Positions 2,436 through 48,667 of a DNA stretch of 64,000 bases are shown one piece after another (within the stretch, counting starts at the first letter, position 1; each line of letters begins with the position of its first letter). Under the pieces are notes generated by a model. That model saw nothing but the letters and a program-made list of their open reading frames with translations. It was not told where the DNA came from and ran no database searches. The translations under genes were made by a program, and so were the position numbers. This DNA is from Leishmania infantum JPCM5 (lineage: Eukaryota; Euglenozoa; Kinetoplastea; Trypanosomatida; Trypanosomatidae), in the NCBI RefSeq assembly GCF_000002875.2, contig NC_009388.2:267501-331500 (forward strand), written 5' to 3'.

Positions 2436-4601
2436 TCATGGTTGTCCGACGGCACCGTCGACTGCCCCTTCACCGTCGCCGTGCCCATCCGCTGATCCCG
2501 CCGCCCTGCCCAGCGTCAGTTCCTCGCTCTCGACCGCATGCACGCACCCAGAGCCCACACACTCCACCGCCAGCCCCTGAGACAGCGTCCACACCGATGA
2601 GCGGATGAGGGTCAAGTCGCCCTCGTGCTCGACTCGAATCGCGGCTGCAGCGGGGCCGGCCCGCGCGCCGCCGACAACACGGCAGCACGTCAGGGAAGAA
2701 GAGCTGCCACTGCCGAGTATGATGGGCACCATCCCCGTCACGGTGCAGTGCGCCAGCCGCACCTGCGATCGCTGCGACGCGACGATGCTGGCAATGCTTG
2801 CGTACGTGACCTCGGCGAGCGTGTCGCCAGTGGTGCGCAGCATCACACCAGCGTTGCGTGCCAAGATGAGACGAGCAGGTGATAGCTGCGCCGCTGCCGC
2901 CTCACCGCGGCCGGCGAAGCCCAGTGGGTTGCCAGCATCTTCCTTTTCCGCTCCCATCATGGGGTCGCTGCAGACGTTGCCGTCGTGGTTGATCGATTCG
3001 GCACTGTAGGCGCAGTAAGGCCAATCATCCAGTGATGCGCCCACCATGTGCAGCGTGCACTGTGCCCCGTCCACGAGCGAGACAAGCAGCAGCGGAACAG
3101 TGGCAACATCAGCAGCGGCCGCTGCCACGGAGGCACCACGACGCCGCGGCGACGGCGCGGCGGCTAAGAGAGGAGGTGCTGCGTCGGGGGAGAGCGCAGG
3201 GAGGGCCGAGGAGCGGGTCGGGGCTGGGGATGTTGCTGGGCGAGCGGCGCCGGAGGCACCGCCATCGCCTCCTTCGAAGGCGGTGCGGTCATCCTCGTCG
3301 CCGCCCTCGCCGCGCACGACACGCACGTAATCGCAGTGAAGCTTCGCGTACGGCCCCTCACACGCCACGACCGCTGAGACGAGCTGCCCGGTGCGTCGAG
3401 CGCCGAGGCACGGTTGTGGGGAGAGCGAGGCGTCCACGATGCAGTCCGTGAGGTTCAGCACACCTTGCTGGCAAACGTGTACACCAGGCGGCTGACGCAC
3501 CAGGTGGTGCAGGACGCACACCGAGGGGAGAGCTGCCCAGCCGTCTGCGGCTCTGGCAGAAGCAGCGGCGACGGCGCGACCGGCCGCCAAGGATGCCTTG
3601 ATGGCGGCGGCGGTGGCGAGGAGCGGGGAGGCATACGCACTGTCGCCGCCGTGTTCCCCAGTCGAGGTCGTGCCGTCAGATGAGTTGCTGCTGTCTGTGT
3701 GACGGTGCTGCGCTGGCGAGTTGCATACCTCCTGCCCCGTCCGTGGGCTGCATCGCGCTCTCGTCGCGGTCACGTTGCCAGCGCTGTTCCTCTCCGTGTC
3801 CATCGCCCCGTCCTCGTCGTCCGTCGCTGTCGCCGTCGTCGCGTCGTCATCGTGCTCCTTCCCGCTATTTCGCGCACGGTCGGCGCGGCTGCACTCGGCG
3901 AAGAGCCGCGGGAGATGATTCGTGGGCCGCAGCACGACGCGCTCCATCGTGCACGTTCCGCGCACCACGCAGCTGCCGCAGATGGTCGGGCGGACGGGCG
4001 GAAAGACAGAGGTGATGGCTAGTGCGCCTGACGTAGGCGCGGCAGCGCCACTGGCGGAAGGCGACAGTGAAAAGGACCGACGTTCCGCTACGCCGGCTGC
4101 CGTGCTGCCAGGCTCCGGCCCGGCCCCGTTCGCGCCCACCGTGGCAACGGGCATCGTCAACGTGTTCAGTCGGAAGGGCAACGGAGCACCGAGGCATGTC
4201 TCCCAGTAAAGCCACTTCAAGCGGCGCCGAAGGGCACTTGTCAGCGGCACGATGCGGCGGCCGCCGACCTCGTCATCGTCGTCTCCCACCAGAGGCGCAG
4301 CGCCACCGCCGCCGATGGCGACCGGCGACGCTGTGGCTGCCGTGGCGGAGCTGGGCGAGACCGCTGACCTCGTCTCGCCGCGCCAGCGCGACGAGGCATC
4401 AGACGAGAGGCGCTGCGCTTTATCAGCGACGCGCGATGGGGGGTGCCGCGGTGTTGGTGAGGCGCCAGCAGCTGTGGCCGGGGACATCGCTGTTCCTCCG
4501 GCGACAGTGGTGGCGCCGGGCATCGATCCTGTCCCGAGCGATCGCGCTCTCGCACCGCTAAGCACTGCATCACAGCCGCTGCTGTCTTCCGCAACGGACT
4601 C

Positions 4602-4640
<39 letters not shown>

Positions 4641-7553
4641 GTCGTTCGGGTCACGTCGCCCTGCCCACTGGTGGGTCACGCGCCACGGCACTGCTACGAT
4701 GTACGAAGCCAGACGCCGCAAGCGCCGTACCGCCGCGGACACCGCGGCGCCGGGGCCATGTCTCCGCAGAATGTTCCCCAGCCCGCCACTGCCTCTTGCT
4801 CCGCGATCCACCCCTTCGTCGGAGCTGTCCACAGCAAGGCTGTCGTCATCGTCGCCCGTCTCGTCACCTTCGGCGTTTTGGATGATACGGCACACGCCTC
4901 CGACGTGCACGACCACTGCGTACTGCTGCGCGCAGCGGAGAAGCGCGTTGGCGAGCGTCAGATGTGCGCCGTAGAAGACGTTCACGCCGACCAGGCTGCA
5001 GTCATACACGATACACTTGCCAATGAAGCCCGTCGCACCGTCGCCGCAGGTGACGCCGCAGCGAGCGCCACCACCGAGCACCGCCTGCGGCAGGTGCGCC
5101 GTTGCCTCGTCGAGGGCGATGCAGGCAGGTAGCAGGTCCGATACGTTCGCCGCATCTTCGGGGCTGCACAGTGACGTAGTCGACGCCGTGGACATCGGCG
5201 GCTGCTGCTGTTGCGTCTTCGACAGCTGAAGGAAGGTTGCTGAGCGGATGCTACTGCCTGGCGCTGGCATGGCAGCAGCAGTGACATCCGCCGACGACCC
5301 CGGCGCGGCGTGCTTCAGCGCGTGAATATCTAGCACGCAGTCCGGGTCGGCCTCGCAGTGCGCCCCGTCGTACAGGTACATGCCGATGCGCGAGAAGCCG
5401 TAGATCTTCACGTGGCCCTGCAGCGACAGCACACCGCTGCGGCACTCTATTCCGTACTTCTTCGCCATGTAGCTGCCGCGCCGCACGACGCAGTGCGCGT
5501 GGGATAGAACATACACACCGACGTGGTTGCTGCCGGCGCTGCACTTGGTCAGCTGCAGCGCGCCGCCGTCGGAGGTGAAGCCGTTGACGACGTGCTTGGC
5601 CGTGCAGTGGTGTGCATCCAGCAGTGTCTCCGGGCCGAGGGAGGCAAAGCCGAACGTGACGCAGCGCACTTCGGTGTCCTGCGCGTGGCACTGGCTGCCA
5701 GACCACACCTTTACTCCTGAGGTGCGCACGGCTGGTGCAACGCGACCCGCGGACGACGGCGCCGATGGCGGGGTGGCGGTTGTCGGGGTTGTCGTAGCCG
5801 CCGGAGCAGCGGCGCGTGTGGCCTCGCCCCTTCCGTCCTCGCCGCCTTCGTCCCGGTGGGGCACTGTGTCGCCTTGCTGTTCCGCGAGGAGCAACGCGGA
5901 TGCGGGAAGTCGATTGCGGCTGTGCGCATGGCCAGCGTCGCTGTCGCTGGTGCACAGCACCAGCTCCTCTGCGAGGCCGACGTCGAGGTGGAGGTGGCGA
6001 GTCCATAGGCCAGCCATACCCGCCGCATCGCCCTTGTTCGTCGAGCTGCCGCGCCTTCCCTCATTCGTTTCTCTTACCGCGGCTGCTGCCCCGGCCGCAC
6101 CGCCGTTGCCGGGCCGATGGAACACATAGCTTGCCGCATCCGTGGGGGACATGTCCACGAGGCACTTGCTCAGCCGCAGGGTGCTGCCGTTGTACGCGTT
6201 GAAGCCGCTGTCGCGGCCGCGCAGCACGGTGATGCCGGTGCACTCTACCTCGCTTGACTGGATTTCCACGCCGTAGACGTCGCCACAGAAGACTGCCGGG
6301 ACGCCGCCGCAGATGAGCGGCGGCGGTGTGCGTCCGCAGGAGCTGACGCCGACCACGTGCGGCGTGCTGTCGGCCTCCACGCGAGAGCCGTTCAGGGCGA
6401 AGAGGCCCACGTGGGACGTGTCCGCGCCGCAGTGTCGTAGTCGGCACTGCGAGTGGTCGATCGTGTAGCCGTTGATGGCGTTCACCACCAGGCACTCCTG
6501 CAGCTCTGCCTGCGCCGACTGGATGGCCGCAAAGCCGAAGCCGTAGCCCGCCATGAGGCACCGCCGAGCCTTGAGGCTGGCGTGCACGACCTTGACACCA
6601 CAGGAGCGCTGCCGCGGCGACCCCGACCGCAGCTGACCGTCAGAGGTGCCGTCCGCGCCGGTCAACGCGCGGCGACCCGTCAGCTTCAGCGCAGCAGTCG
6701 AGGCAGCCGCGGCTGGCGACTCCGCGGACCCGAGGGCGGCTGCCACTGTCGCGGCCGCCGCACTGGCGGCCTCTTCGGCCTCTGCCGTTGACCACAAGAC
6801 GCATTCCTCCAGCTCCACGGCACTGTTCTCGTAGGCGTAGACGGAGGTGTCGTGCGCGTTCATCAGCATCACTCCGGTTGCCTTGAGCGCGGCGTCGCGC
6901 ACTTCGAGGCTGAATCGACCACCGAAGAAGCCGAGCGTCTGCTGCGGCGATGACATCCCGATCGCAGTCTGCGAGCGACGGTGCGGTGCGTGGCTCGCCG
7001 TGGTGGTCACTGGCGCAGCGTCGCTCAGCGTGTCGGAGCGAGGGAGCTGCTCTGCGTAGTGACGCCGTGCGAGAAGCGCGACACGAGCGGTGCGCTCCGC
7101 AATGGCTGCCGCAGAGGTCCACAAGGACTCCGTCTCTGTGATGGCCGGTGGCACCACACCGCCTCCTCTCGTCTCTTGGTGCTTCTGCCGCAACGCCTCC
7201 GTCACAGCGCGGCGTGCCGTCTCGTGCGCCTCGCCGAGCAGGCTGCACCGCCGTGGGAAGCTGCCACAGCTGTCGTCGGTGAGTATGCACTTGGCCTTGC
7301 GCAGCACGAAGGCGCCAACGTGGTTCGTGTCCGCCGAGCAGCCGTCCAGCGTGGCCGCGGAGGCGTCGACGGTGAAGCCGTTCACGACATCCTCGGCGTG
7401 GCAGCGGTAGAAGTGGGCCACCGAGTGCGCGATCACACAGAAGGCAAAGTAGAGATGCCGCGCCGCGCAGTAGCGGGCGGTGAGGGTGCCGCCGAGCTCG
7501 ACGTTAAGGCCGGTGCAGCGCGTCGTGTCGTTGACGTGTATCGGAGGTGGTGG

Positions 7554-7584
<31 letters not shown>

Positions 7585-10500
7585 CCACTGCGGCCGCTGG
7601 CGGTGTCATGGCTACTTTCGGTGTCCACGTCGTCAGCCGCAGCCTCTTGTGCTGCTGCTGCTGCTTCCGCGGACAGCACGGCACTCGTTGCCGCAGCGGT
7701 GGTCGTTGGACTGCCTTCGAAGAAGCAGTGCTCCAAGTAAGCACGGCACCCTTGCACGCTGACGGCGCTGGAGATGGCGGCTGTGACGGTGCAGTACGCC
7801 ATGTCGACAATGGCGTTCTGCTCGGCAAAGATGGTGCGCTCCGTATTGCGGCCGGGGTGGATGGCGCAGCGGACAAGCCGCAGGCGGGCTTGATTTGAGA
7901 CGAGTATCAGCGAGCGCAGGACTGCCATCATGGCTGCAAGAGACGGTGCGACGGCTGCTGCTGCCGCCGCCGCTTTTCCTTCATCGCCACTGTCCTCTCC
8001 GTTGCCGCTGACGCTAGCGACTTCATCGCTGCCCTCATCCTCGTCGCGGTCACAGCTCGCAGTGCTGGGCTCGCCACTGCGCTTCTCAGTCTTCGCCTCT
8101 TGAGTGCTGCGTCGCCACCCACGCGTCGCCGCCGCAGCTGCTGCCGCGTGCAAGTTGGGCATCAGCCGGTAGACGTGCGTGTCTTCCGACATCTCAACCC
8201 GAGAGGAGTCCAGTACGAGCACGCACTCCTTGCGTTGCGCGTAGAAGAGGGCCGGAGGCGGTGGCGGCGGCGGCGGCCTCGCCGCATCGTCGGCGCCTGG
8301 AGAGGCTGTGGAGGAGGAGCGCTGACGTGGCGCGCCACGTCCAGCACCACGACAACGGTCGGACGACCCCCTGCGGTACGGCGGTTGCCGCAGCAGCAGT
8401 CGATCATCCGGCATCAGCGCCAGGTGAGAGCGCGACACCTGCACACTCGCCAGCTCCTCCGTGGTCAGGGAGCCGACGAAGACGCAGTTGTCGAGCACGA
8501 GGTTGCCAAAGACATGGAGGTGGCCGTAAAGGTACATGTTGCTGCAGTGCAGCGTGAGGCCACGGGGCAGGCGGCACGTGTGGATTTCGCCCGTCGGGGA
8601 CGGTGCCGTCGATGACTGCAGCGAAAAGCGAAGCGATGGCCGTTGCGTCGTCGAGGTACTGCCGAGCTTTCGAGCCGCGGTGGCGGAGACCCGCACGTTG
8701 CGCAGCACGCAGGCCACCCGCGCTTGTTGAACGTTGTCGCCGGCGTCGCCAATGAGGTGGACCTCGAAAGGAAGGGGCACCGCTGCGCTGTCGGCGGCAC
8801 CGCGCTCGCATGACACGCCCGCCTCTGCGAGCCGCAACACCTGCGTGGCCTGAGACTCTTCCGCACTCGACGTGGCCGGAATGCCGCCCACTGCCGTTGA
8901 AGATCCGCTGATGGAGGGTGGTGGCGGCGGCGGCGGCGGTAGCGTCAATGGAATCCACAGCTCGGCGACGCGTTGCTGCAGCGGCTGCGCTTTCTCACAG
9001 CTCGCCGCTGCCGCTGTGTGCGGGTGTGTGGGCGCGTAGGCAACATGCCAAATCGCCGGCGGACGCGCACGCAACACGCGCTCGGCGTTCATGACAGGCG
9101 CGAAGATCGACGTTGAAGCCGCCGACGACGACGGCGGTGGGGTCGCTGTCATTGTCGACGGGGTGCGCTGCTGTAGCGGAGCAGGCAACGACGAGAACGC
9201 GCTGCCACCGTACTCCGGGCTCGCACCAACGCGGTCTCTGCCAGCAGGCGTATCGGGTGTCGTGCTGTCCTCCGCGCTGTACTTGTCATCCCCCGCGGCG
9301 GTGGCCGAGACGACGGTCTGCTGCACCCCCCGCACACCGGACTGGAACAGTCGCACGCCTTCCGCGTCCGCGAGGAGGGCGGGCGAGTCGAGCAGCATTA
9401 CGACCGGCTTGGCTGTCGCTGCTGTTGGGTGTGGTTGCTGCTGTGCCAGCGTGGGGCAGAGCGGAGGCGGCGGGGACACCGGCGACGGCTCCAATGGGGG
9501 AGCGTAAGTGGCCACGAGCGCGTCGTACACGGCGGTGTTAAGATGCGACACGTCACGCAACACGTGCGGCGCCAGTGTGCCGCTGCCGCCACGACCGTGT
9601 CCGGTCGCGAACTCCATGAGCGACGGCGTCGTGGTGGCGGTCTGCGCACCGTGCGGCGAGGCTGAGGGCCTGACTGAGTCGGACCCGGTGGCGGCGACGG
9701 CGCTGCCGCTGCCAAAGTACATGTCGAGGTGATCTCGTTGCACCGTGCCGCCGCCGGTAGCCGCTGCGGCTGCCATGTTGGGGTTCGCGGAGGCGCTGAG
9801 GCCGCCCCTCAACTCCGAGGGGGCGGGCAGCGACGGCATGCCATCGCGCGCGGCACTCGCAGACTCTGAGAAAGGACCAACGTAGCGACGGAACAGGTGC
9901 GGATGCGCGCGACGGATGTACTCCATGCCGAGCTGATGCTCTTCCTCCGAGTAGGCGCCTGCAAACGTTGATGAGCCACCGCCACCGACACCCCACGCCG
10001 CGACAGTCTCGCGGAGGTTTTCCATCCGCTCCGCGTCATCGACGGACACGCGGCCGTCACCGGCAAAGGGGTTGAGTGTCTCGAAAAGTGCGATCAGCAG
10101 AAGCACCATGTTCTCAGGTGTCAGCTCCCAGTCCTGGGACATGAGCTCGAGGGAGCAGAGGGCGCCGTGGTGGATGAAGGACGCGATGAGACGCGGCGAC
10201 ACGACGAAGACGAGCGGCATGCGTGCACGACGACGACTGCCGCCCGTAGCGGCAGCGGGCGGAGGAGGGGACGCGAAGGCACTCGTCTGCAGCTTCGCCA
10301 GAGGTTGCGACAGGTCGCTGACGCGAGAAACTGCCACGCCGGCGCCATCGGCATCCTCGGGTAGCGCCATGTGCCCCTCGGACGTCAACGGCGGCCGCCT
10401 CGCCTCGCCGAAGCCCACGAGGCGACATTGGAAGTCGTTGTACGGCTGTGGGGTGGTTGCGGTGGGCACGCTGTTGGCATCGTCGTCGTTCTCCTGCTGC

Positions 10501-11117
10501 TGCGTGCTTCGGTCACTGGTACGCGTGCCGTTGCTGCCGTCTCGAGAGCTGGCCACTGCACTTGGGGCCACCTCGCAGCCCCCACTGCGCTCTGCGGCCG
10601 CTCGCACCTTGTCTCCTGCACCGGAAGAGGTGAGCGAGGAAGATGGCTGCGCTGGTGGTGCTGGCGAGCTCGTCGTCGTCGTGTCGTGCCGATGCACATG
10701 TGGTGACGATGTTGCGGCAGCAGATTGTGGCGCTGCATCAGCGGCGTGGATAGCAGCTGCGCTCAGCTTTGTGGTCATCGCCGCGGCGGCGAGCATCGTT
10801 GCCGACGCGCTCGGCTCCGTGTGTCGTGAAGGACGCCGATGCCGCGATCCCGCGCCACCGACGCCCGCGCTTACACCCCATGCACCTCCTGCGGCGCTGT
10901 CCTCGCTGTCGACATCTTCGTTGAAGACGAGCTCGAGCGACACGTAGAAGTCGGCGTTGTTCTCATCCTTGTAGAGCAGCTGCACGAACCACCTCGTCAG
11001 GTCATCATCGTCGATGAGTGTGATTTGCGAGATGCCATGAGGCACGTTTCGGCCGCTGTTGCGCTTCAAGTACACATACAACCTCTGTAGAAGCTGTATG
11101 TACTCCTTCGTGGGCAT
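2436..11117 (-). CDS. UBE2Q-like ubiquitin-conjugating fold fused to parallel beta-helix repeats
   Basis: The protein has 2893 residues from the ATG at 11117 (MPTKEYIQLLQ); the frame is open further upstream but has no ATG there. Residues 1 to about 75 (LTRWFVQLLYKDENNADFY) and about 300-400 together read like a UBC fold of the UBE2Q type. The key block is FVVSPRLIASFIHHGALC, with a Cys at residue 321 where E2 enzymes carry the catalytic Cys, followed by LELMSQDW and a helix LLLIALFETLNP. A low-complexity insert of roughly 200 residues splits the fold. From about residue 840 to the C terminus there are many short beta-strand coils typical of right-handed parallel beta-helix proteins, including three copies of a VNGF/YT-D-NHVG module. 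Poly-Ala (4602-4638) and poly-Gln (7553-7580) runs interrupt it. Inference: a membrane-free ubiquitin-system protein whose beta-helix could recognise a target. Whether it is active is unknown. Confidence 0.75.
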
Positions 11118-25802: not shown

Positions 25803-27449
25803 TTACCGCAGCGAGGCATCCTCGACGTAGATGATGGACCCATCGGACACTCCGTAGTACCCGAGCGTCTCTAGCTCGTTGTCTAGCGGCGTCTGCAGCT
25901 CCAGCACACCGTCGTCGCCGCTGCGGTAGCTGAGCCGCTGATTGACTGGCTTTACCTGAAACATCCTTTGAACCAGCGCCTTCAGCCTCGCCACGGTCAA
26001 CGTGCTCGGCAGCTTCGACGTCTGCGTCGTCATCGGGCTCGACGAAGACGACGTGGCGGCGGCGGCCGCCGCCGCGTAGCCGTTCACGAAGTAAAGTGTG
26101 ACGGTGATCATGACGTAGCTGGCACCCGTCGTCGTCGCGGTGTCGCCGTCGCGCTGGATGGCGAGCACGACGTCCTTGTGCTTCTCCTTGAGTACATCGA
26201 CGAGCGGGTACGCGACGCGCGGAAGGGGTGCGCCCGTGGCCGAGCCGGCCACTTTGTTGGCTCCGTCACGCGACTCCTCATCCATCTGACGCTGCAGCAG
26301 CCCACGCTGGATGTACAGCAGCTCCGAGTCCAGCCGCTCCTTCGGCCGCACGGTGCCGCGGTTGAGCAGCGTGATCGTCGGCAGCGCGGCCACGACGTAC
26401 ATGCGGCCGTTGGTTTCGTTCCAGGTGGGAAGCAGCGTGCTGTACGTGATGCGGAAGGTGGCGAGCTTCGGGCAGAGGATCCGCACGGCGTCTACCGTGC
26501 TGGTGTTGCACAACGTAGCGTTGTCCTTCAGGCACAGTAGCGTTAGCGGGCGAAGATAGCGGTACGGCTGCAGAACACCACCGTCTTCCAGCTCTGCTGT
26601 GAGGGCCTCACCGGCAGCCGCGCGTGCGACGAGAGTCTCCGGCAGTACAAGGTCTTCCAGCTTGTTGTCGGTCAGGTAGAGCTGCGTGAGTGCCGGGAAG
26701 ACCTGCGCGAGGGCGACACCGATGGCTCGCCAGTCTGACAACTCGTTGTGCGCCAGGCTCAGAGTCGTGACATGAGGGAAGACAACCTCGCCGGCCGCGG
26801 CACCAGCGCCAGAGTCGTTTGCCGCCATCCTCTCCGCTGTCCCTGGCGACGCCGGCGGTGACGCGACGACAACGTCGAGCGAGGTGAGATTGTTCGAGTC
26901 CAAGTGCAGCTCCTTCAGTTGTGGCACCTCGACGAGAGCGCGCAGCTGCGCCAGCGAGCGGAAGCCGGTGTTGTTCAAAACTAGCTTGGACAGGTGCGAC
27001 GACGAGAGTGCCGCCGTCGCGGGTGGTGCCATCGGCAGCAGGTCCGGTATGCTGCACAGCTGCAGTGTTGCCAGGCGTGGGAGGTAGGGCATGAGCTTGC
27101 CAACCTCGGCCAGCGAGAGCGCCGTGTTCTCTGACAGGTCCAGCTCTTCCAGCCGGATCATGTTCGCTTCCTGCACCTCTTTTGGGCCGCCGCCTGCGGC
27201 CGTCGTGGCGCTCGGCTCGTGCATGGCCACGTTGATGCCGCAGTTGCGCAGCACGACGAGGGTGAGCCGATCGTGGCGGCTCTGCTTCACGCGCGTCTGC
27301 TGCACGCCCACAAACTGCCATTTCTTGTCCTGCGCAAAGGCCACACCGAGCGGCTCCTCCGTGTTGTCGTCGGCAGAGCCGTAGCGCTGCTTCACCGCAT
27401 CTACGAAGCTGACCGTCGGCGGTGGCGTCGATGACGACGGGGACGGCAT
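25803..27449 (-). CDS. Tubulin-specific chaperone E-like protein (TBCE/TBCEL)
   Basis: The protein has 548 residues from the ATG at 27449 (MPSPSSSTPPPTVSFVDAV). FVDAVKQRYGS at the N terminus matches the linker after the CAP-Gly domain of TBCE, and LVVLRNCGIN matches the strand that opens its leucine-rich repeats. Repeats are visible as LEELDLSENTALSLAEVGKL, LSKLVLNNTGFRSLAQLRAL, LKELHLDSNNLTSL, TLSLAHNELSDWRAIG and LTQLYLTDNKLEDL. The C-terminal 110 residues form a ubiquitin-like domain (TVARLKALVQRMF, QRLSYRSGDDGVL, LGYYGVSDGSIIYVED) with an Ala insert. TBCE folds and dissociates alpha/beta-tubulin with cofactors C and D. There is no CAP-Gly domain and no room for one in frame upstream, so it resembles TBCEL in layout. 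Confidence 0.85.
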   Translation of the reverse strand: MPSPSSSTPPPTVSFVDAVKQRYGSADDNTEEPLGVAFAQDKKWQFVGVQQTRVKQSRHDRLTLVVLRNCGINVAMHEPSATTAAGGGPKEVQEANMIRLEELDLSENTALSLAEVGKLMPYLPRLATLQLCSIPDLLPMAPPATAALSSSHLSKLVLNNTGFRSLAQLRALVEVPQLKELHLDSNNLTSLDVVVASPPASPGTAERMAANDSGAGAAAGEVVFPHVTTLSLAHNELSDWRAIGVALAQVFPALTQLYLTDNKLEDLVLPETLVARAAAGEALTAELEDGGVLQPYRYLRPLTLLCLKDNATLCNTSTVDAVRILCPKLATFRITYSTLLPTWNETNGRMYVVAALPTITLLNRGTVRPKERLDSELLYIQRGLLQRQMDEESRDGANKVAGSATGAPLPRVAYPLVDVLKEKHKDVVLAIQRDGDTATTTGASYVMITVTLYFVNGYAAAAAAATSSSSSPMTTQTSKLPSTLTVARLKALVQRMFQVKPVNQRLSYRSGDDGVLELQTPLDNELETLGYYGVSDGSIIYVEDASLR

Positions 27450-28230
27450 CGGCGATGCGAGGTGGCGTATGCCGTCTCTGTATGTGTGCGTGAGAGCGGG
27501 GGCAGGAGAGTGGAGGGAGGGAGGGCGGGGCGGCGGCGTCGTGTGATGAGTGCGCTTACGGATGCAGTCACTGCCGTGTTGGAATGCGGGAGATAGCTTG
27601 ATGACATCCTCCGCCCCCCGACCACACACACACACACACACACACACGAGTAACGAAAGAATGGGCGAAAAGGCAAAGCAGCCGCCGCAGCGGTGGTCGG
27701 TGAGGGGGTCACATCACGGAGAGGGAGAGTGGGATGAATGGATGACAGAGGTGCATACGGTTGCGTGCTGCGTGCAGGCAACTCCCTTCATGTCTCGGCG
27801 CGCTCACGCGCGCGCGTCTCTCTCCGTCGGGCCCGCCCACCGCCCGTGCGCTCATCGCATGCCTCTCTCTCTTGTTGTGTTGTTTGTCCCACCGTGGCTT
27901 TAGAGAATTTGTGCATCGACCGCAGCGCGCGCGTCACCACGCACGCACTCGAAACGAGAATACAGAAAGGAGATCCGCAAGGCACAGGTAAGTCGGGTGC
28001 GCGGTGGAGAGATGATACGCGTGCTGATGCGCACACGCCCCACCCCCGGCCGGGCTCGGCCGCCGTGTGTCCTCACGCGTCGCACGAAAACAGTTCTGCT
28101 TACCAAGTAAACATCGCGCTTGGCGCGCGAGGAGCAGCCGCGGAGCGCTGACGGCGGTGTTGGTGGTGGTCGTGGTGGGTAACAAGCGGCACACACCCCA
28201 GAGTCCTCCCACTTGCGCATCCGACGTGCA
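27450..28230. repeat. Intergenic spacer with CA microsatellite
   Basis: No gene is seen. A CA repeat fills 27622-27647. A plus-strand purine tract at 27490-27540 is CT-rich on the sense strand and is followed by an AG near 27478, a candidate splice acceptor giving the TBCE-like mRNA a short leader of about 28 bases. Confidence 0.7.
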
Positions 28231-31200
28231 TCAGGGCTCTCTATCAGAGTCGCCGCCGTCCAGGCGACCACGACGAAGTCGTTGGTAGTGCGGACGTCGC
28301 CTTCCCTCGTCAACGTCACCGTCGCCGCCGCCGGAGGAGGAGGAGGCAAGGTACTGCTGAAGAATCTGTGGAGACGTGAAGGAAAAGTTGTGAAAGTGGT
28401 CAAAACCACCGCTGCCGCCACCCCCGGCGCCGAAGCTGCTGAGGCCACCGCTGTTGCTGCCGTCGCCGGTGGCACCGGTCCGGCCGTCCGCACCACCTTC
28501 GTTGCCGCAGCGTGTCAATGCCAAGTTCCGGTGGTCTCTCTTGCCACCTCGACCATCACTGCGGCCCTGTTCACCGCCGCTCTTCGCAGAACAGGACTGC
28601 CGCTGCGGTGGGCTACCGCCCCGCCCCGCAGCAGCCGCGTCGTCTTTGTCATCGTCGCCGATGGTGTGGTCGTATGGCACGCCCAAGTGCATCTGCCGGT
28701 GCTGCGGCTCAGCACAGCCGTCGTTGGAGGTGAGGCCGACGAGCTTGTCTGTAGAGGAGATGGTGGCGTCGTTGCTGCCGTGCTTGGACCAATACGACCA
28801 CCATCCTCCACTGTCACTGATGCCACGACTACCGCTTTCAGCGCCAGCCTCGCACAGCAGCGACGCTGCCGCTGAGGGATCCGATTCCTGCTGCTGCTGC
28901 TGCTGTAGTTCGCGTGCGATTCGCTTGCGTTGCTGCTGCGCCCAGATCGCCTGCACGCCTCGTCGGCGGCCCGCGGCTGAAGGGCTGTCGGCACCGCTGC
29001 TGGCGGTGGCCCCGATGGCATCCTTGCCGCCCTGACCGCGCCCGCCGTAGCCCAAAGTCGGCGTCGATGCGGCGCCGCTGTCGCGGTCGCTGCCTTCGGC
29101 CGGCATCATCGGCGTCGCTGCAAAGGTGCTCATGCTAGCCTCGTCATCGACGTTGTACGCGACACCAGAGAGCGTGGTTGTGAGTGGCCCCAGGAACCCT
29201 GCGGTGTCGCCAGCGCCGCCACCGATCGTGTCGAGGCTGAGAGAGGAGGCAAACGCGGTGCTGAAGAGCCGGCTGCCGCTGCTGTCCAAGGACAGCGGCG
29301 CGTTAGCGGAGAGGGTCGCGCACATGGTCGGGTTCACCGTCACCGTCACGTCTGTGGCGGCGAAGGGCATGCTCGTGCCGACACCACCATGCGCAGCGTC
29401 GCGACCGAAGTGGGCGTACCGATGCGGCATGCACTGGTCGCTGCCGCGGCGACGGTGATCCCCACCACCGCTGCAGCTGCCGATACGAGCGTTGAACGAC
29501 CACGGTGTATCGTACGGAGACAGGGAGATGGTGTCACCGCGTTGTCGGCGCCCACTGATGGTGCCGGAGGGGCCGCCATCGCCGCCACGGTCGGCCCCGG
29601 CCAGCAGTACCATTGGTGGGCGAATGGTTGTGGAATACATCGCGGCTGCCCTGTTGTTGTCACCCTGCGAGCTTGTCGAGGAGGCATCCGAGGACATGGA
29701 GAAGGCGTGCACCGAAGTGGACGTCGTCGTGGAGATGGAGGACGCAGTCGAGTCCAGCAACGACGACACGGCGTCCGCGTTGCGCTCACTGCCGGCGACG
29801 TTCTCACCACGTGCACTGGCTGGCGCGGACGGCGTCGGTCGCCGTGCAGAATCGACCGATTCACTGGCGTCACTCTTCTGATCGTCCTCGTCTTGCCCTT
29901 CGCTCGCGCTGCCGGAGGTGGTCATCGTGTCACTGCCGTCGTCGTCGCCGCTGCTGTGCTCCTCACCACCGCTTCTCTCGTAGCCCGCCTCGTCCGCTAT
30001 CCCCACATCGTGGTTGTCGTCATCATCAGCGACGTCGTGGTTGACGTTCATGCTTGCCACTCTTGTGACCGCAGCCGCAGTCGCACTTGATGGGTGTGCA
30101 CCACGATGCTCCACGGCGGAGAATGCGGCCGGCATCTGCGGGCCGCGCGAGCGCACAGCACCAGCGCTATGCAGCTCCCCACCGCACGGGCTCTCGGGCG
30201 AGGCCTCGACACCGCCGACGGTTGTGGTACCGTCACGGACGGCCGCCAGCGCCTGCAGCGCCGCTGGCGACGCGGTGCACGACAGCGCGGCGTCACTTGC
30301 GGTACCTGCTGCGGTGGTGGCGGCACTAAGCGATCCGCCAACGCCCGTCAGCTCAGCGGACTGGATCATCATGATCGTTCCCAAGGGTGTGGTGTTGGTG
30401 GTGCTTGAGGACGAGGTGGTTGCTGGAAGCAAGGCGTTCTCGAAGGACGCCGCGGCGGACAAAAGCTTTTCCGGGGGCTGCTGCTGGCTCTCTTCACGGT
30501 ACGCGAGGGATGGCGGCAACGGTAGCATGTGCGGTGATGCATCCGGCACGTCTTGGTTTCCACTGCCGTCGGCGTACGACAGCGGATGGCGATGATGGTG
30601 GACTCGGCGTTGATACTCCCGCTCAGGAACCTGTGTGTCGGCAGACGATGGCGTCGCCCACGCGCTGCTGGTGCCGCACGGACCGCCAGCGCCGCTGGGG
30701 CCGAGGCTGGTCGACAGCGACCGCTGCGAGTCTTCGAGCAGCATGGTGGTCGTGGAGGAGACCGGCGACATTGTAAAGGCGCTGAGGTCGCAGTGCATCT
30801 CGCCGCTGTGGCCGAGCAGCGGCGACGCGTACACAGGTGCCCCCTTCAGAGAGCCGTGCATGGGACGTGTGGAGCCGCCGCCCAACGACGTGCGCGAGTG
30901 GCTGCGCAGGTTAAGGGAAGCGTTCGCAGTCGGCGGCACCTCCACGGGCATGATGGGAGTCGGACCGGTGACCGATACGTTGCCGCGGCGGCAGACGCTG
31001 TTGTTGCTGTCGGCCTCCACGTCGACGCCGCCGACGCCGGGAGAGAGTGGGTTCGCAGCGCTGCTTCCCCACCCGCTCGTGCCGGCGCTGCTGACGACTA
31101 CCGACGATTTGACCAACGTGCCGCGTCGCGTTGGCGTCGGCAACCGTACGCTCGCATGGGAGTCTTCGAAGCTACTAACTTCCATCGTCGAGTTGACCGC

Positions 31201-34200
31201 GGCAACCGTGATGGTATCTGTTTCGCTCGTCATGTCGGCTGCGGCTGCTGCCTCTTCCACGATCGTGGAATCATCGCCGCCGTCCACCGCGTGCGCGTCG
31301 TCCTCGGCGAGGGCATCCTGCTCATAGTAACCACCACCGCCATCATGGTCCTCGTCCTCGTCTACCAGCACCTCTGCATGTTCCTTCTCCGCTTCCTCCA
31401 CGACCGCCTCCGCGTCTGCCGTACTGTGCGTACCAACGCCACCACATGTTGGGAGCGCTCCGCTCAGTCGCCCGTCGGCAGCGTACGCCATCTCGCGGCT
31501 TGCGGGCAGTACAGAGCTGTTGGGCGCGGCGTCATCTACCCTGGCCGGCTGCTGCTGCGGCAGAGCCTCAAGTGAAGTCGGTGGCGTTGCCGCGAAGGTG
31601 CTTCTCTCTGCGCCGGTGCTGCGCGTTACGTCGGTGGAGGCGGAGACGCAAGCTGTCTCGGCCGCTGTCACGGCTCCAGTGCTGCTGCCCTGAGTCTCCA
31701 CAGGGGCAGTGATCAAGGCTTTCGGGGCAGTGCCGGAGTCTGCGGAGCGCTGCTGCTTCTTCTGGGCTGCCGCCGCCACCGCCAGCGCGGCATCCACGAA
31801 GCTCTGCGGCAGCGTCGCAGCGCGGTCAAAAAGGTCTGGCCGAAATTCAGCAACCGCCGCTGACGTCGTCAAACTGCCGCTGCCGCTACCCACGCTGAGT
31901 GGCGTGTCCATCGGAGATGCCTTCGCGGAGCTCATCCTGGCTGAGCAATGCCCTGCTAGCTGCGGTTCCCACATGCGTGATGGGAGCGCCACTGACGCAG
32001 TCGTCGCCGCCGTTCCGGTCGCTGTCGTCCCCCTCGTGTCGAGCTGCACCTCTTCCGCGAAGTCTGCCCTTCGGGCATCACCGGCCGCGGAACTCTGGGC
32101 CGGCACTTCGGCCAGTCGCTTGTGCGACGGTGAAGCATCGCCAAGGTCAGCAGTGACGGCTGCTATCACTTCCACTGCGGGCAGCTGCAGCGGCTGGGTT
32201 TTCTCCGCCGGCCCCTGAGAGCTGGCGGCCGGCGTGGAAACCGCTACGCCAGCGCCGGAAGACGTGAGCGCGACCGGTGCGGCGGCCGCGTGGGACACTT
32301 CCAGAGCGGTTCTCACGCCATCGGTGTGCACGGCTGCTGGCCCGTCGGGGTCGAGCTCAGGCAGAAGAGAGGCATCATCGCGATTTTGCAAACTGAGACT
32401 GCTGGCGCTCGCCACTAGAAGCTGCTGCACCTGTTGCGCCGCCTCTGCATCGAGGGGCACAAGAACGACGGAGCCACCACCACCACTGCCACTGCCGTTC
32501 GCCGTCAGCTGCGTGTTTGGGCAAGACAGGGTTGCTGGGAAGCTCGCGCTGCCGAAGCTTTTGTTTGTGGCGGTCGCCGCCGTTTTATTGGCGCGCATCA
32601 TCATGAGCTCCTTCTGCTGTTCCTTAACCTCCTTGATGCGGCGGTGCTGCTCCGCCGCGGCAGAGAGTCCCGTCGCCGTCACCGCAGCCGGGAAGTAGCG
32701 CAGGTCGTCGCGGGTGCGCAGCCGCGGCGCGTAGGGGGCGCGAATGCGCCGTTCCATGAAGAGCTCGCGCCAGTCCTCCGGCCGCGTCTGCGACGGCAGC
32801 GGAATCGCCAGAAAGGAGTCGTGCGTGTGCGAGACAGATGCGGCGGCAGCAGCAGCGGTGGTCGTCGTGGCGAAGGGCGTCGGGGAAGCTGGCACCAGCG
32901 GGGGCAGCGGAGAGGCGACCGTCGTGGGCTGCTGCAGCGTCCCATCCCACATTGGCGCGACGAAGTCGGCCGGCAAGTTGTTGGAGCCGAAGGCAGCGCG
33001 CACGGAGCGGCGCATCTCCGTCGACAGGACGCGCCTCTGATAAACGTCGTAGTACAGCTGCGAGACAACGTATGGGCAGGTGAAGAAGGGGTGCTCCAGG
33101 ACGGCCTCGCCGCTGAGGCGGTGCTCCATGCGGCGGTCCAGCAGCTTCATCGTCAGGTCGCGCAGCAGCGCCTGAGCCTCAGCCATCTGCGCGACGGCGT
33201 TGCCGATGTAGCGGTCACGGGTCGCCTCGTCCAGGTTGAGGCAGGACAGACGCAGTCGGCGCCGCTGATGGCGGCGATGCCGCTCCTGCTGCTGTTGCTG
33301 GTGCTGGAGGTGCACCGCCGTCGGGGAGGCGGACGAGAGCAGCGCAGCGATGACGCCGTCCTCGGTGGTGGTCAGACGCATGGACAGGTTCGTCGGCGCG
33401 CCACAGAGCGACACGACGGAGTTGGATTCCACGCCGGCGAAGGAGTCGTTCAGCGTCGACTGCGGCGACGGTCCTTGAGTGTCTTCTTCCGCACTGGCAG
33501 TCCTGGACACGCCCAGCGCACCGAGCTGGTTCGCGAAGGAGTCGTTCAGCAGCACCGCCACGGATGCTTTCGGCACCGTTGCTGTGGAGTGCGGCGACGC
33601 GTAGCTGTAGCTGTGCAGGCGACGGTGGGCATGCCGGTGCGGGGTGACGTGTGTGGCTGCAGCGTCGAACGACGGCAACAGGGATGGTGGGCGCTGACGG
33701 GAATCCTTCGGATGCGGGGTGCAGCTCTTCACTACGTCGTTCGTCAGCGCTTCCTCCGCCCCTTCTGCCGCTGCGCCGGTGCCGTCGCTGCCGGACTGCG
33801 CAAAGGACATGGCCGACATCGCTGGAGAGCGCAGCTGCACATCGAAGCTGCGGTTGTCGGGGTTGTAGATGACCTCTGCTGTGAGGGCCGACGGCGTCAC
33901 TGGCGGTCTTGTGGACTGCGACAAGGGCGTGAAGCTCCGCCGCATCCGCCGCGCCACCCGCTGCTCGTAGGCCAGCCGCACCTCCTCCGCGCGGTAGTGC
34001 AGCTGTGCGACGCGCGTGTGCACCTCCAGCGGCGTGAGCCGGTAGTCCTCCGCGGTGATCTTCACGTCCTCCTCTACGATGGAGCGGAAGAGGGCGAACT
34101 GGTTCTGCGCGTTGAAGGCCTTGCGCCCATTCGCCCACTCGAACAGCAGACACCCGTAACTCCACCAGTCGGTGCGGGAGTCGTGCGGTTGCCCACGCAG

Positions 34201-37200
34201 CATCTCCGGGCTCATGTACTGCGTCGTGCCGGTGAAGCTGTTCGCCCTGCCATCGGTGCCAGCACCCGCACCCGAGTAGGGGCTGCTTGCAACCTCGCCG
34301 TGGACGCCGTCGCCGCTGCCTGACGGCATAGGAGATTCGGGAGCTTCATATCTCGTTGGAGCAGCAGCTGCAGGACCCGGCTGATCGCGGTCGCCGTCGC
34401 AGCGCGGCACCGCGCAGAGGCACGTCCGCGGAATCTAAGAGCCGCTCAAGGAGGGCGTCCGCAGCACCGCGAGGCTCTGCTCCCTCCTCGGCAAGTTTCG
34501 GCCCCACCAACTCCCTTGATGCGGTGTCGCCGGAAGGCAGTCCTGAGGCGGCCGAAAAGGCTTTGGTGCAGCGCGCACTTCGCGAAGCGCAGCNNNNNNN
34601 NNNNNNNNNNNNNNNNNNNNNNNNNNNNNNNNNNNNNNNNNNNNNNNNNNNNNNNNNNNNNNNNNNNNNNNNNNNNNNNNNNNNNNNNNNNNNGCGCGGC
34701 GGCTACCGTGGCTGCTGCCCGCGTGCAGTGGCGGCGGTGGCGATGATGGCGACGTAGACGCACCGCTGTCCTCGTCTTTGTCGCTGACGACCTTCGCCTT
34801 TCCTTTTTGCCTTCTTGGCAGTGACGTTGCCGCTGCACTCGTGGTGCTGGTCGCGGTGTGGCTGTTATCGCTGGCGAGCTGCGGCTGCTCCGCCCCCGTG
34901 GCCGGCGGCCACGCGCTCTTGGTGGTCTTTCCCCTCTTCACGTCAGCCGCGCTGGTGCCACCTGCGGCGCTCGTCGCGGGCACCGTCACCGCCGCGGACG
35001 AGGCGGCCACTGCGAAGATGTCTGCCAGCTCAGACGCCGAGGCTCTGCGCGGCATCGGCCGCCACTTGGTCGCCGTGAGCGACGGCGTGGACTTCACCGA
35101 CACCGCCGAAGACGATTCGCCGCCTCGCAGTGCCTCGTCCACACCACCACCGCCGTTGTTGCTGTGGCCGCTGCTGCTTCTTCTCTCGTCGTACTGGAAG
35201 TGCACAGGTGACCGTGGCAGTGACATCTGCGTCCTCGGCGTTGCCAAGTCGATCGCCGTGAGGTCTGAAGGCCTGGTGGCTAAGGGCAGGGCGGTGCTGC
35301 TCGTCGCGGTAGACACGACGCTGGCGCCACCGGCGGCAGTTTGACGGCTTGGCGTGGATGCCGCAGGAGATGGCGGGTGCTGAGACGCAGCCCCAGCCTG
35401 CGTGGCGGGACCTGTGCACGTCACGCCTCGCGGCTTCCACGATAGCCGCCGCGCCGAGTCGGCAGAGCTGCCGCGGCCGTCCTTGTCAGCGGTATCTCGC
35501 CGCCGTCTGCCCTTGCCGTTATCATCATCAGTGGATGAGGAAGAGGATGAAGACATAGAACGGCCGCCGCGCGCACCACCGTCGCGCTCGACTGCGGGAA
35601 GCGTGCGCCGCCGCAGCAGCCGGTACCGCTCGCGGCCACTAGACCCCACCGAAGCCGTCGAGGACGCGACTTCGCCATCTCGGGTCGCAGCCGGAGCACT
35701 GTCTCCGGCTGCTGCCGCGGCATGGGCCGCTGCGGACTCTGTGGCCTCCGGCGTGCGTGAGGTGGTGGGTGTCGTTGGCGAGCTTCTGCTTCCGCCGCTG
35801 CCGACGTTGCGACTGGTGGCAAACTCGTCGATGGCGTCGGTCGTGTAGTAGAACAAGTCCGTTGCAAGCCGCGGGTGGCGGCTGGGGCAGTCAGCGGCAC
35901 CTCGCTGGGCGTGTCTACTACTCTGCCGCTGCTGCTGCCGCACTGCGGACGGCGGGGCCTCGGCCATGCTGCGGTTGTTGTCCGTGGCGCCGTCAAACTC
36001 TGTTGTGTCCGTGTCTTCCTCTTTCATCTCCTCCTCGTCGGCCACGGCGGCCGCGGCTTCGTGGGCGCCATCAGCCACGCCGCTCGCGTGACCATCCCGC
36101 GCTGAGGCCAGAGGCAATGCCGCTCCCGTGGCGGTGTCCGCGACGGTGTAGCCCGGCCGAGAGGCACTGCTGACCGTGCTGGACCCGACACTTCCAACCA
36201 TGGCGGGCGATGCAAGGATTGCGTCTCTGTCCGAGGTCGTGGTGCCGCTGCTGACTCTTGGTTGCTGCCGCTGCGCATCCGGAACAACCTCTGTGGGCTG
36301 TGTCACAGCGGCGGAGGAGGGAAGACGCGAGAGGGCCGGTCCGGCCGTCAGCTGTGCGTTCGACGTTGCCGCGGCAGGAGGGGGCGCCGGGGTGAAGGTG
36401 CTAGAGGTGCTCTGGTAGTACGGGTACTGCATCTTGACCAGGCTTCGCTTCATGCTGCGGAGCCACAGCTGCTGCACGCTGAGCGAGTAGAGGTCGCCGC
36501 CCTGCGCGAAATCCAGCACGAGGTAGAGGTGTGTCTGGCTCTGGAAGGCCTGGTAGAGGCGCACAAGGAAGGGGTGGTGCAGTTTGGCGAGGAGCTGCCG
36601 CTCCGTGAAGGTGCGCTCAACGCAGCCCTCCTCCTTTACTCGCTGCTTGGAGATCTTCTTCACGGCGAAGTACTCCCCAGTGACCTTGTTGCGCGCCAAT
36701 GTGACTTCGGCGAACGTGCCACTGCCGAGAAAGGCAATCAGCTCGTAATCCTGCAGCGAGCGGGCGGCAGAGCTGACATATCGACTCCGGCGTGCGTGGT
36801 AGTGCTGCGGCGAGGTGCCTCCAGCGGCCAATGCTGCACCCGTCGTCGTTGTCGCCGCCATCGAGCTCCCTCCCCGACTTGCCGTCGCCTTCCCTCCTGC
36901 GAGTGAGCTGCCCGTCGTGGTGGTGGTGGCACTTATCGACTTCTGCAAGTGCATGGAGCTCCCCATGGAGGCGGCGCCGTCGCCAGTCACGGTGCCAAAC
37001 GTCGACGTGCTGCTGCGCCTGGTGCTCTTGTCGAGACCAGCCCCGCCGCCGCGAGTGCAGCTGGGGCTGTTGTTGTTGTGGTGGCCAGGATTAGCTGCTG
37101 CTGCTGCAGCGGCGGCGGCGGCGGCCTCGAGCTTTTCCCGAGCGAGCTGCTTGCGCAGCATGTCTGTCTTGCCGGCAATGACATTTCGCAGGAAGTCGTC

Positions 37201-37292
37201 GACAGCGTCGTCGTCGTCGTCGTGAGCGTGCGCGGTGGACGTCGTCGTCACGTCCGCACATCTCGCGCTGACCATTTCCGTTGCTGGCGCTT

Positions 37293-37326
<34 letters not shown>

Positions 37327-37656
37327 AGCAGCAGCAGGAGCAGCAGGAGCCGATGCGCCGAAGTTTAGTGACGCCGCGAGGTCAAGGATGCCGGGAGAGC
37401 CGTAGTCGCCATCCATGCCGGCGTCTGAAAGGGTGAGGGAGGCGGGGGGCGAGGGACGCGCCGCACCGGCAGGGGCGTCTTCCGCATCCGCGGGACTCCA
37501 CCACTGCTTCAGCGGCGGCACATCAACCCCGCGACGCGGGCGACGAGGCTGCGCCTGGCGCACCGCGGCCTCTCCAGTGCCGCCATCGCTTGCGTCTGTC
37601 GCGGCCGCCGCACTGGCGCTCGTCTTGCCAAAGACGTGCTGCGCCCAGCGCAGCAT
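28231..37656 (-). CDS. Very large AGC-type protein kinase, interrupted by an assembly gap
   Basis: The N-terminal part starts at the ATG at 37656 (MLRWAQHVFGK). The kinase N-lobe lies at residues about 303-400: DYELIAFLGSGTFAEVTLAR (Gly loop), AVKKISK (ATP lysine at residue 333), the alpha-C Glu352 in FTERQLLAKL, and LYLVLDFAQGGDLYS. A disordered insert of several hundred residues follows and runs into the 100-N gap at 34594-34693. Left of the gap the C-lobe appears: SFTGTTQYMSPEML and DWWSYGCLLFEWANGR near 34110-34230, a second insert, then HRLSGEAVLEHPFF near 33090. An AGC-type tail (WRELFMERRIRAPYAP and DDLRYF) is at about 32690-32790. The remaining roughly 1500 residues are disordered. 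The HRD and DFG motifs are not present in any visible frame, so they must lie in the gap. A TAG at 34437-34435 also breaks the frame, most likely through an indel beside the gap. Confidence 0.8.
34594..34693. other. Assembly gap (100 N)
   Basis: Exactly 100 N, which suggests a fixed-size placeholder. It lies inside the kinase gene between the N-lobe insert and the activation-segment region. Confidence 0.98.
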
Positions 37657-41335: not shown

Positions 41336-44300
41336 TCAAGAGGCGCTCGCGTTCACCGGGCACGCATCACCCTTCACGCTCCCCCCTGCTTCGCTGCCGG
41401 CAGCGACCGCACTGAGGAGTGCAGCAGCACCACCACCCACAGCAGTGCAACCGCCAGCCTGTGTCGGGGCGCTCACCTTCGCACACGTTCTCGCTGCGCA
41501 CGTCTCCATGGAGCTGGCAGCGGCCACCTCACGAATGGCGTCCTGGATCTCCGGCAGCACCGTTAGCGGGGAGCGTGTCATCCTCTCCGGCAGCGCGTTC
41601 GGCAGCAGCGGGTGCACGGTGATGCCGTCCTTGACGCCGATCTCGATCACGCACCCTTTCGGGATACGGATGGTCGGCGACAGCTCAGGGATGACGTCCA
41701 TGAAGAAGGACAGGATACCCTGTGCTGGCACGGCCGGCGCGACGACGAACACGGGGGACTGCGTGCGCATGACGGCCATCAGCGCCGGCTCCAGGCGGAC
41801 GTTGACCTGCCGGCAGCTCTCACCATTCGGTAGCTGGGTGCAGTAGGACAGGCGCGGGTCAGCACCGCTCAGGGCGCGCTGCAGGTGCGAGACGGCCTCC
41901 TCATGCGTGGCATAGTGTACCCGCGGCGGGAGGGGGGCCGCGAGCCATTCCGCGGCCGTGACACTCCCGACTGGCGCCGACGATGCAGTCGCGTCCGCTT
42001 CACCGCTGCCCTTGCGTGACTGGTGCTGCTGCCCTGCTGCTGCTGCGCCGGCCCTTGCGTCGCCGACCACGTCTTCGTCGTCCACGTCGTACAGGAGCGC
42101 AGACAGCCGAGGGTATTTTTCCTTTACCCATGCGGCTGTGTGGCCGCTGAAGCGCCCGAAGTTGATGTTGTCGAGTCCCGGCACCGCGCAGAGCACCTCA
42201 TCGCCTACGTCCTCCTCGTCTGCATCTACCTGGTCGCTGTTGTCCTCGTGCACGGACTGCTCCTCCGCCACGCCCCCGTCGTGCTGCGGCGGATCCTGCG
42301 GCGCCTCGCTCGATGCGTTCGGCGTCGACGGTCCACTGCCGGTAGTCGCGACCGCATCGGCTGGCGCGAGGGTCGCCTTCGCCGCACATTGCTGCCCCGC
42401 CGGCGCGCTGTGCTGGTTCGCGCTGCTGGATACCTGCAGCGCAGAGGCGTCTTCTTCCTGCGTAGCGCCCTCCATCAGCGGTGCCAGCGTGCTCAGCACG
42501 CAGTAGTTGGTGGCGTGCAGCACCACCATGTGCGGAACGTATCGATCTTGAATGAAGTGCTTCAGCGCCAGTGCGTAGGCCTCGCCTTGGGCCGTCAGCC
42601 GCTCGTCACCACCGTAGACGTGCTTGCTGTCACCGACGGTCTCGCCGGGCAGTGCCACGTAAATCGGGAAGGCGATGGGGTGAAGATTTAGGAGGAAGAA
42701 AGCGATGCGACTGCCCAATCCGTTCGGCACGCGGTGCAGTATGACGTGGTGCTTGACGTTGACGATCTTAATGTACGGCATCCGTTCCTCGGGTTCTAGC
42801 GTTTCGTAAACCTTCTCGTACTGCAAGATGCGGTTGCGGAACTCGGAGATGACGGCGCTGACATCCTTGAGGTTCCTGAAGTCATCGTTGCCGCACTTGC
42901 TGCGCAAGATGTTCTCCGTGACGATGGTGTCGTCGGTGCACACGGATTCGATGAAGAGAAGCCGGTACGGCACCGCATGCCGCTGTGCCTCTTTCTGGAA
43001 GTAGTCCGACAGCCACGCCCGTCGCTTGCGCGTCGTGTTCGTTGCGTCGAGGATACCGACGGCGAGCGAGTGGGAGGCAATGAAGTTGACGAGATCCTCG
43101 CAGGCCAGCTCCGCCATGCGCTCCCGCAGCTGCGCTCCTTGCGGGTTGTCCGGATTGAAGAAGTCCGCGCCAGCGGTGGCCTCGACCCCGAGCAGCTGCC
43201 GCCGGTAGTTGCCGGCGTTGAACACCTTGCACGGCACACCTTTCCAGTTCATGTAGCGCACGAGCCGCTTGCTGATGAAACTCTTGCCTCGCCCTGGCAG
43301 CCCCACCATGCACACAATGACCGAGACCGTGTCGCTGATCGTGGTGTAGCTCGAGTGGTGCAGCGCGGCCAGCTCCACCAGCTCGTGGTGCATCTCCTGC
43401 AGGAAGGGTTGCTCCTCGGCTGTGTGGCTACCGGCCGTCGGCGCCGCCGCCGGTGCCGCCGCTGATGCTGCTACCAGGACTTTGGCAGTCTCGGCAGGGA
43501 CGGCAGTGGCGTTGCTCGACGAAGACGGGGCCGCTACGACGGGGACAGAGAAGAATGACGTTACATCGCTGTTACCATTCTTCGTGATGGCGCTGCTGCT
43601 GTTGCCGCCATCGCCGCCGCCGCCGCCGCTTGGTGAGGCAGGCTCAGCCACAGCGGCCTCTATCTTGGCTGGGTCGCATACGGCACGCGGCGCTTGAAGC
43701 AGCGGCGGCGGCGTCGAGTGCCCGTCACAGGAGTACTTGCCTCTCAGCTGCTGCTGGTTGCCCAGCACGCCGAACGCGGTCAGGCGGTAGTGGTGGTGGT
43801 GCTCTTCAAACGACTGCTGGCCCATGTCGCAAAGGCTGCTGCTCGCCGCGCCGGCGCCACGCGGCGAGCCGCCACCGGAGGCGGCCGTCGCCGCGGTCGT
43901 CGATGAGGTCATCGACGTGGCGGCGCCGCCGTGATAGCCACTCAACTCCTCGTGCGAGTCAACGCCAAGAAGTTGCAAGGGGTGCAGGATGCGCATGGGG
44001 CAGGCGACCGCATCCGCAGTCGTTGTGGCGCCTCCCCGCTCGGCCGCTGGGGAGCGGCTGTCTGGACGCCGCGGCGGACGCAGGAGCATGTGCCGCTGCT
44101 GCGCACCACCGCCGGACGCTGCTGCCGAAGTTGCTGGGGTGGCAACTGCAGTTGTCGCCGCGCCGGTCGCCGCCGTCGGCGCTGGCGGAGGACAGAGTTT
44201 GCTGGGCACCTCGCCAGGAAAGCTTCCTGTCGCGTTGAAGTTGTAGTCGTTACGGCTGCGTTGCTGCTTGTCTTCCCCCGCGGAGAGTATGGGTGGACTG

Positions 44301-48634: not shown

Positions 48635-48667
<33 letters not shown>

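Follow-up and report, generated by a model that had tools for sequence, protein, structure and literature searches.

A predicted UBE2Q-type ubiquitin-conjugating domain and a long beta-helix in one protein of Leishmania infantum and other trypanosomatids

Could a single polypeptide of Leishmania infantum carry the fold of a ubiquitin-conjugating enzyme (E2) and, further along the same chain, a long beta-helix? The question is raised by an open reading frame (ORF) in a stretch of 64,000 nucleotides of strain JPCM5 (contig NC_009388.2, positions 267,501 to 331,500), called the window here. An earlier note, made from the letters of the window, had described at 2436..11117 an ORF of 2893 residues with a UBE2Q-like E2 fold around Cys321 and a beta-helix behind it. 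The ORF was found as described and lies on the minus strand, which the note had left unstated. The frame starts with the ATG at 11117, runs uninterrupted for 2893 residues and ends with the TGA at 2436-2438; the plus-strand frame of 2436-11117 contains many stops. It could be extended by 35 codons upstream, to a GTG. Most orthologues begin with the methionine that corresponds to this start, and the N-terminus is longer in the records of L. braziliensis and T. brucei. The mass of the protein, estimated from its length, is about 290 kDa. Cys321 and the two peptides given for its surroundings are in place, SPRLIASFIHHGALC from residue 307 and LELMSQDW from residue 323. The closest match, with 99% identity over residues 1-450, is a protein of L. 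donovani annotated as conserved hypothetical protein (P0002). The genome searched has 75 contigs and a size of about 32 Mb; the window belongs to contig C3.

2436..11117, minus strand: the whole gene, a single ORF of 2893 residues encoding a protein with a predicted UBE2Q-type ubiquitin-conjugating (UBC) domain and a beta-helix

The N-terminal domain

Sequence profiles and predicted structures assign the N-terminal domain to the UBC folds of UBE2Q type, and the closest E2s by sequence and by fold (with weak E-values) are UBE2Q1 and UBE2Q2. In the window protein, the predicted domain is laid out in three pieces. Confidence in the models is given as the predicted local distance difference test (pLDDT).

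10896..11117, minus strand: first half of the predicted UBC domain, residues 1-74 (helix 1, strands 1-3); pLDDT of the window model 71-93 per 10-residue block over residues 1-70; alignment A1
10227..10895, minus strand: low-complexity insert within the UBC domain, residues 75-297, without counterpart in the Trypanosoma orthologues
9876..10226, minus strand: second half of the predicted UBC domain, residues 298-414 (strand 4, active-site loop, helices 2 and 3), from profile alignments, with the order of the elements taken from the T. rangeli model

The note had proposed that a low-complexity insert splits the fold, and the relatives that lack it show this directly. The N-terminal domain of the Trypanosoma proteins is compact, with around 190 residues; in the Leishmania proteins, strands 3 and 4 are separated by a low-complexity stretch of about 220 residues. 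In alignment A3, made of 14 full-length proteins, window residues ~75-297 face gaps in all six Trypanosoma rows (0% occupied) and in P0023; the occupancy is 1% in P0026 and 63-100% in the other six. Two further alignments were used as profiles, A1 (11 sequences) and A4 (14 insert-free sequences).

When the A1 profile was compared with 177,635 PDB sequences, only three matches were obtained at E<=10: UBE2Q2 (0.0016), UBE2Q1 (0.0026) and UBE2K (0.94). The A4 profile returned UBE2Q2 (0.0017), UBE2Q1 (0.0029), three UBE2R2 entries (0.23-0.42) and one immunoglobulin, so that five of its six matches are E2s. A reversed control profile, built from 6 of the 14 A4 sequences, gave two matches, neither of them an E2. 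Single relatives pointed the same way: P0023 matched only UBE2Q1 (E 0.03) and UBE2Q2 (0.74), and the T. rangeli domain had UBE2Q1 first (0.16) and UBE2Q2 fourth of four (1.0), behind two unrelated proteins. The individual E-values are weak, and the argument for UBE2Q is convincing because the same family is consistently chosen.

The AlphaFold2 (AF2) model of window residues 1-450 is poor in its second half, with a mean pLDDT of 50.7, and for this half we therefore relied on the T. rangeli orthologue. In the model of the latter, a helix (3-23) is followed by four strands (28-35, 38-49, 55-63 and 73-78), the cysteine C92, a short helix (94-97) and two further helices (105-118 and 167-180). Among the 50 Foldseek matches listed for this model, ranks 15, 17 and 27 are taken by UBE2Q1 and two chains of UBE2Q2, with E-values of 0.006-0.010, a probability of 1.00 and TM by target of 0.57-0.64; the remaining 47 are beta-helix proteins, judged by their titles. 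Beta-helix proteins also filled the 50 VIA matches listed for the T. rangeli model, and no UBE2Q was among them. For the window model, 49 of the 50 VIA matches listed name an E2 in their title, and 46 of the 50 reach model residue 398 or beyond. Family profiles, the T. rangeli fold and the alignment of the cysteine described below thus all speak for the UBE2Q-like fold that the note had claimed.

The putative active site

10176..10178, minus strand: Phe314, aligned with UBE2Q1 Tyr343 through P0023 and invariant in alignments A2 and A4
10155..10157, minus strand: Cys321, the putative thioester cysteine, matched to UBE2Q1 Cys351 by profiles and the P0023 alignment, present in 24 of 24 covering records
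9903..9905, minus strand: His405, aligned with UBE2Q1 His409 through P0023 and kept in 24 of 24
9888..9893, minus strand: Phe409-Arg410, near the place of UBE2Q1 Trp414 (the Trp is not conserved), kept in 24 of 24

The alignment of P0023 with UBE2Q1 pairs a Phe with Tyr343, the Cys with Cys351 and His108, the last aligned residue, with His409; the UBE2Q1 numbers were obtained by counting from Cys351 in the PDB chain, using the residue numbers of PMC10971424. By this alignment, the putative catalytic cysteine falls in the active-site loop. The motif F-I-H-x-G-x-x-C is present in 24 of the 24 records that cover the place, among 26 records including that of the window; P0022 starts within the beta-helix and does not cover it. 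The distance from Cys to His is 58 in UBE2Q1 according to the published numbering, 59 in P0023 and 84 in the window protein, with a range of 59-94 over the 24 records, and the loop between the helices is variable across the family. A Phe-Arg pair follows the His at +4/+5 in all 24.

The His-Pro-Asn (HPN) motif is absent from 24 of 24 proteins (the window protein has IAS at residues -10 to -8 before the Cys). The absence of HPN is described as a trait of the UBE2Q family in the passages of PMC10971424 on these enzymes. According to the E2 passages of PMC7647121, UBC3, UBC6, UBC11, UBC14 and UEV1 of L. mexicana also lack the motif, in part or entirely. Like UBE2Q1 and UBE2Q2 (PDB 2QGX and 1ZUO), which are its best matches in sequence and fold, the predicted domain lacks HPN and has a Cys at the catalytic place and a His at the place of His409. 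The UBE2Q1 triad Tyr343-His409-Trp414 reads Phe, His and Phe-Arg here. The Phe stands where Y343F is the one tolerated change in UBE2Q1, and the spacing from Tyr to His, by counting, is 16 in both proteins (Y389-H405 here, Y393-H409 in UBE2Q1). Unlike in UBE2Q1, Phe-Arg replaces Trp414, and there is one residue fewer between the aromatic residue and the Cys.

The beta-helix and the family

8571..9875, minus strand: poorly conserved linker, residues 415-849, from conservation
4878..8570, minus strand: main right-handed beta-helix, residues 850-2080, with low-complexity inserts, from PF13229, conservation and the T. rangeli model (up to window residue 1882)
7278..7517, minus strand: beta-helix module A, residues 1201-1280, from the module profile
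6369..6602, minus strand: beta-helix module B, residues 1506-1583, from the module profile
5478..5717, minus strand: beta-helix module C, residues 1801-1880, from the module profile
2436..4877, minus strand: C-terminal part, residues 2081-2893 and the stop codon, mostly low-complexity with scattered rung-like conserved pieces

The sole Pfam signal in the protein is the beta-helix: PF13229 is matched with E 9.1e-7 on the whole-protein score, to which no single stretch contributes enough to pass on its own. The fold is confidently modelled in the T. rangeli orthologue. A conserved module of about 80 residues occurs in three copies within the helix; the copies were detected by a module profile, and BLAST of the window protein against itself reported no internal repeats. 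The note had assigned the whole of the rest of the protein to beta-helix repeats. This holds for the blocks at about 850-2080 but not for residues ~415-849 and most of 2081-2893, which are poorly conserved and show no more than scattered rung-like segments. As a right-handed beta-helix, the C-terminal part resembles AlgG, AlgE4, PL6 and phage tailspikes, with about 6-14% identity among the matches listed; no carbohydrate activity is claimed from this likeness.

Twenty-five related records besides that of the window were collected in protein searches (P0002-P0026). The relatives come from eight named Leishmania species, Porcisia, Novymonas and Leptomonas, those of Trypanosoma from T. rangeli, T. 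conorhini, T. cruzi, T. grayi and T. brucei, and Phytomonas is also represented. P0026, the relative that has diverged most, found only itself when it was used as the query. The search for the same pair of domains in other kinetoplastids, which the note had suggested, was successful: each of the 14 aligned proteins of A3 combines the second half of the UBC domain with all three modules of the beta-helix. The two-part layout spans Leishmania, Novymonas, Leptomonas and Trypanosoma as well as the compact P0023 and P0026 (1180-1224 residues, 1180 in P0023).

Other beta-helix loci were seen in the genome. The genome-wide PF13229 counts are lower bounds, given that the window gene was missed there and seen by direct scan. 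BLAST of the window protein against long ORF pieces of the beta-helix loci L002-L009 (3.3-3.5 kb each) gave no match at E 0.01. On contig C27, at ~332000-339000, a 3300-residue open frame has many PF13229 matches, and the pieces fetched from it had no BLAST match to the window protein. Locus L004 on contig C30 is another case of a signalling-type domain joined to a beta-helix: in an ORF piece at L004:1219-3345 (minus strand), a strong beta-helix accompanies an ANCHR-like B-box and the final part of a protein kinase domain, neither of which reaches the Pfam cut-off.

The window holds further large ORFs, all on the minus strand. The ORF at 41336-48658 encodes 2440 residues with ankyrin repeats and a 6-phosphofructo-2-kinase domain. 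Two adjacent ORFs, 28231-34410 and 34435-37656, apparently contain the two parts of one protein kinase domain, with profile positions 1-92 in the upstream ORF and 153-215 in the downstream ORF. The 614-residue product of 25803-27647 has leucine-rich repeats and a C-terminal ubiquitin-like domain, a layout that we take to be reminiscent of tubulin cofactor E.

Proposed function and alternatives

We propose that this gene encodes a noncanonical, hydroxyl-directed E2-like protein of trypanosomatids with its own target-binding scaffold, to which we give a probability of roughly 0.6. Ubiquitin, or a ubiquitin-like protein, would be passed from E1 onto Cys321, and its discharge, in which the HPN asparagine would have no part, would favour hydroxyl groups, as that of UBE2Q1 does. 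The long beta-helix with its three-copy module would hold the target, and the choice of target, which is normally the task of an E3, could thus reside in the same polypeptide as the E2 chemistry. In the passages of PMC10971424 on discharge, UBE2Q1 and UBE2Q2 transfer ubiquitin onto Ser/Thr, glycerol and glucose, and UBE2Q1 also onto a complex sugar. The nearest parallel on the scaffold side is FBXO11, which the note had named as a ubiquitin ligase adaptor with a beta-helix; the passages of PMC8825234 on this protein do describe three CASH beta-helix domains that are important for substrate recognition. By description, FBXO11 ties a beta-helix to ubiquitylation, as the window protein may, and three repeats occur in both. 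Unlike FBXO11, an SCF E3 adaptor with an F-box and a Zf-UBR, the window protein has a predicted E2 fold, and Pfam found neither F-box nor Zf-UBR in it.

Several results weigh against an active E2-like protein of the UBE2Q type. The profile E-values for UBE2Q are marginal, at about 0.002. The single window sequence matched only unrelated proteins and no E2 in the PDB, and the full-length profile A3 matched nothing there at E<=1. Profile searches, which the note had named as the check on its claim, gave a divided answer: plain Pfam had no UBC match in the whole protein, in the joined domain or in the domains of any of the 14 family members, with the cut-off of UQ_con (PF00179) not reached by the window protein, whereas family profiles against the PDB rank UBE2Q2 and UBE2Q1 first. 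The expectation that the Cys would occupy a UBC active-site position in a model was borne out in part. In the T. rangeli model, C92 comes after strand 4, which is the order of a UBC fold, but both models are of low confidence at this place: the T. rangeli block 91-100 has a pLDDT of 54, the helix after the Cys is below 50 and block 181-190, with the His and Phe-Arg, is at 49, and the Cys half of the window model, likewise of low confidence, has a helix over 316-327. For the window model, no Foldseek match passed E 0.001, no UBE2Q was among the 50 Foldseek or 50 VIA matches listed, and the RWD domain 2ebm, which is UBC-like and has no Cys, tied for the top VIA match. Trp414 is not kept, and according to the mutant passages of PMC10971424, the Tyr343, His409 and Trp414 mutants of UBE2Q1 all load ubiquitin but lose discharge in every case except Y343F. 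Finally, L. donovani has a second record of the gene, P0005, from which residues 262-324, the Cys among them, and other stretches are missing, so that database versions of the gene differ at the Cys; we take the missing stretches as a gene-model or assembly problem.

Part of this evidence would fit a protein in which the UBC fold is a binding module, UEV- or RWD-like and without ligation, with the beta-helix as scaffold of a ubiquitin-handling adaptor and the Cys kept for another reason. The tie with 2ebm, the missing HPN and Trp414 and the weakly modelled active-site loop favour this main rival, and the low pLDDT at the T. rangeli loop shifts our confidence slightly toward it. The strict conservation of the Cys within its motif and of the triad His argues against it, as does the alignment of the Cys with the catalytic Cys351 of UBE2Q1, and we regard it as possible but clearly less probable than an active protein. 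The beta-helix also invites two readings that involve carbohydrate. Since UBE2Q1 and UBE2Q2 discharge onto sugars and the fold is like that of sugar-handling proteins, the protein might place ester-linked ubiquitin on sugars or other hydroxyl-bearing non-protein targets held by the beta-helix beside the UBE2Q-type site, which we consider a doubtful extension. It is more unlikely still that this is a carbohydrate-binding or carbohydrate-active protein whose N-terminal domain is UBC-like in shape alone, with no relation to ubiquitin. The beta-helix fold matches, mostly alginate lyases, epimerases, tailspikes and glycoside hydrolases, agree with such a protein, and so do UBE2Q E-values near 0.002; against it, the profile, a single relative and the fold each pick UBE2Q1/Q2 and the reversed profile does not, and a fold in common with sugar enzymes is no proof of sugar activity.

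The long low-complexity stretches between the parts, and the L. donovani record with missing pieces, could also suggest a gene-model or assembly artefact in which two adjacent genes were fused. This is highly improbable and was rejected, because the UBC block and all three modules lie in one chain with the same layout in each of the 14 aligned proteins. Two further candidates were rejected, a canonical E2 (no HPN, no UQ_con match) and an SCF adaptor (Pfam shows no F-box family at E<=1).

To our knowledge, UBE2Q1 and UBE2Q2 have no C-terminal beta-helix, and the window protein differs from both in this part and in the insert of about 220 residues found in Leishmania. Pfam UQ_con finds 15 places in the genome, none of them on contig C3. 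The passages of PMC7647121 on the L. mexicana inventory report a set derived from InterPro/Pfam domain searches, with 15 E2 genes at the start and 13 kept, all of 16-49 kDa. Members such as UBC1, UBC2, UBC14 and UEV1 have ubiquitin-conjugating folds in the same genus; unlike them, the window protein has no Pfam UBC match and is far larger, and at about 290 kDa it falls outside that inventory by size. A 2024 review, in its passages on UBE2Q, describes catalytic domains that are highly conserved and Metazoa-specific and that score lower in fungi and protists; it regards the family as a probably recent addition arising around fungi. Euglenozoa are not among the protist groups that these passages list as lacking UBE2Q, and its three passages on Euglenozoa concern other enzymes. 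The note knew of no description of the pairing, and in the openly licensed literature searched we found no publication in which a beta-helix is joined to UBE2Q or to ubiquitin of trypanosomes.

The gene would add a hidden E2-like protein to the trypanosomatids, beyond the 15 UBC places that Pfam detects in the genome. It would also extend the UBE2Q-type domain to a deeply branching lineage of protists, in contrast to the recent origin around fungi given in those passages of the 2024 review. With an E2 and a candidate target-binding scaffold in a single chain, hydroxyl ubiquitylation and the choice of target could be tested together, and if active, this giant protein would be a self-contained ubiquitin-tagging machine.

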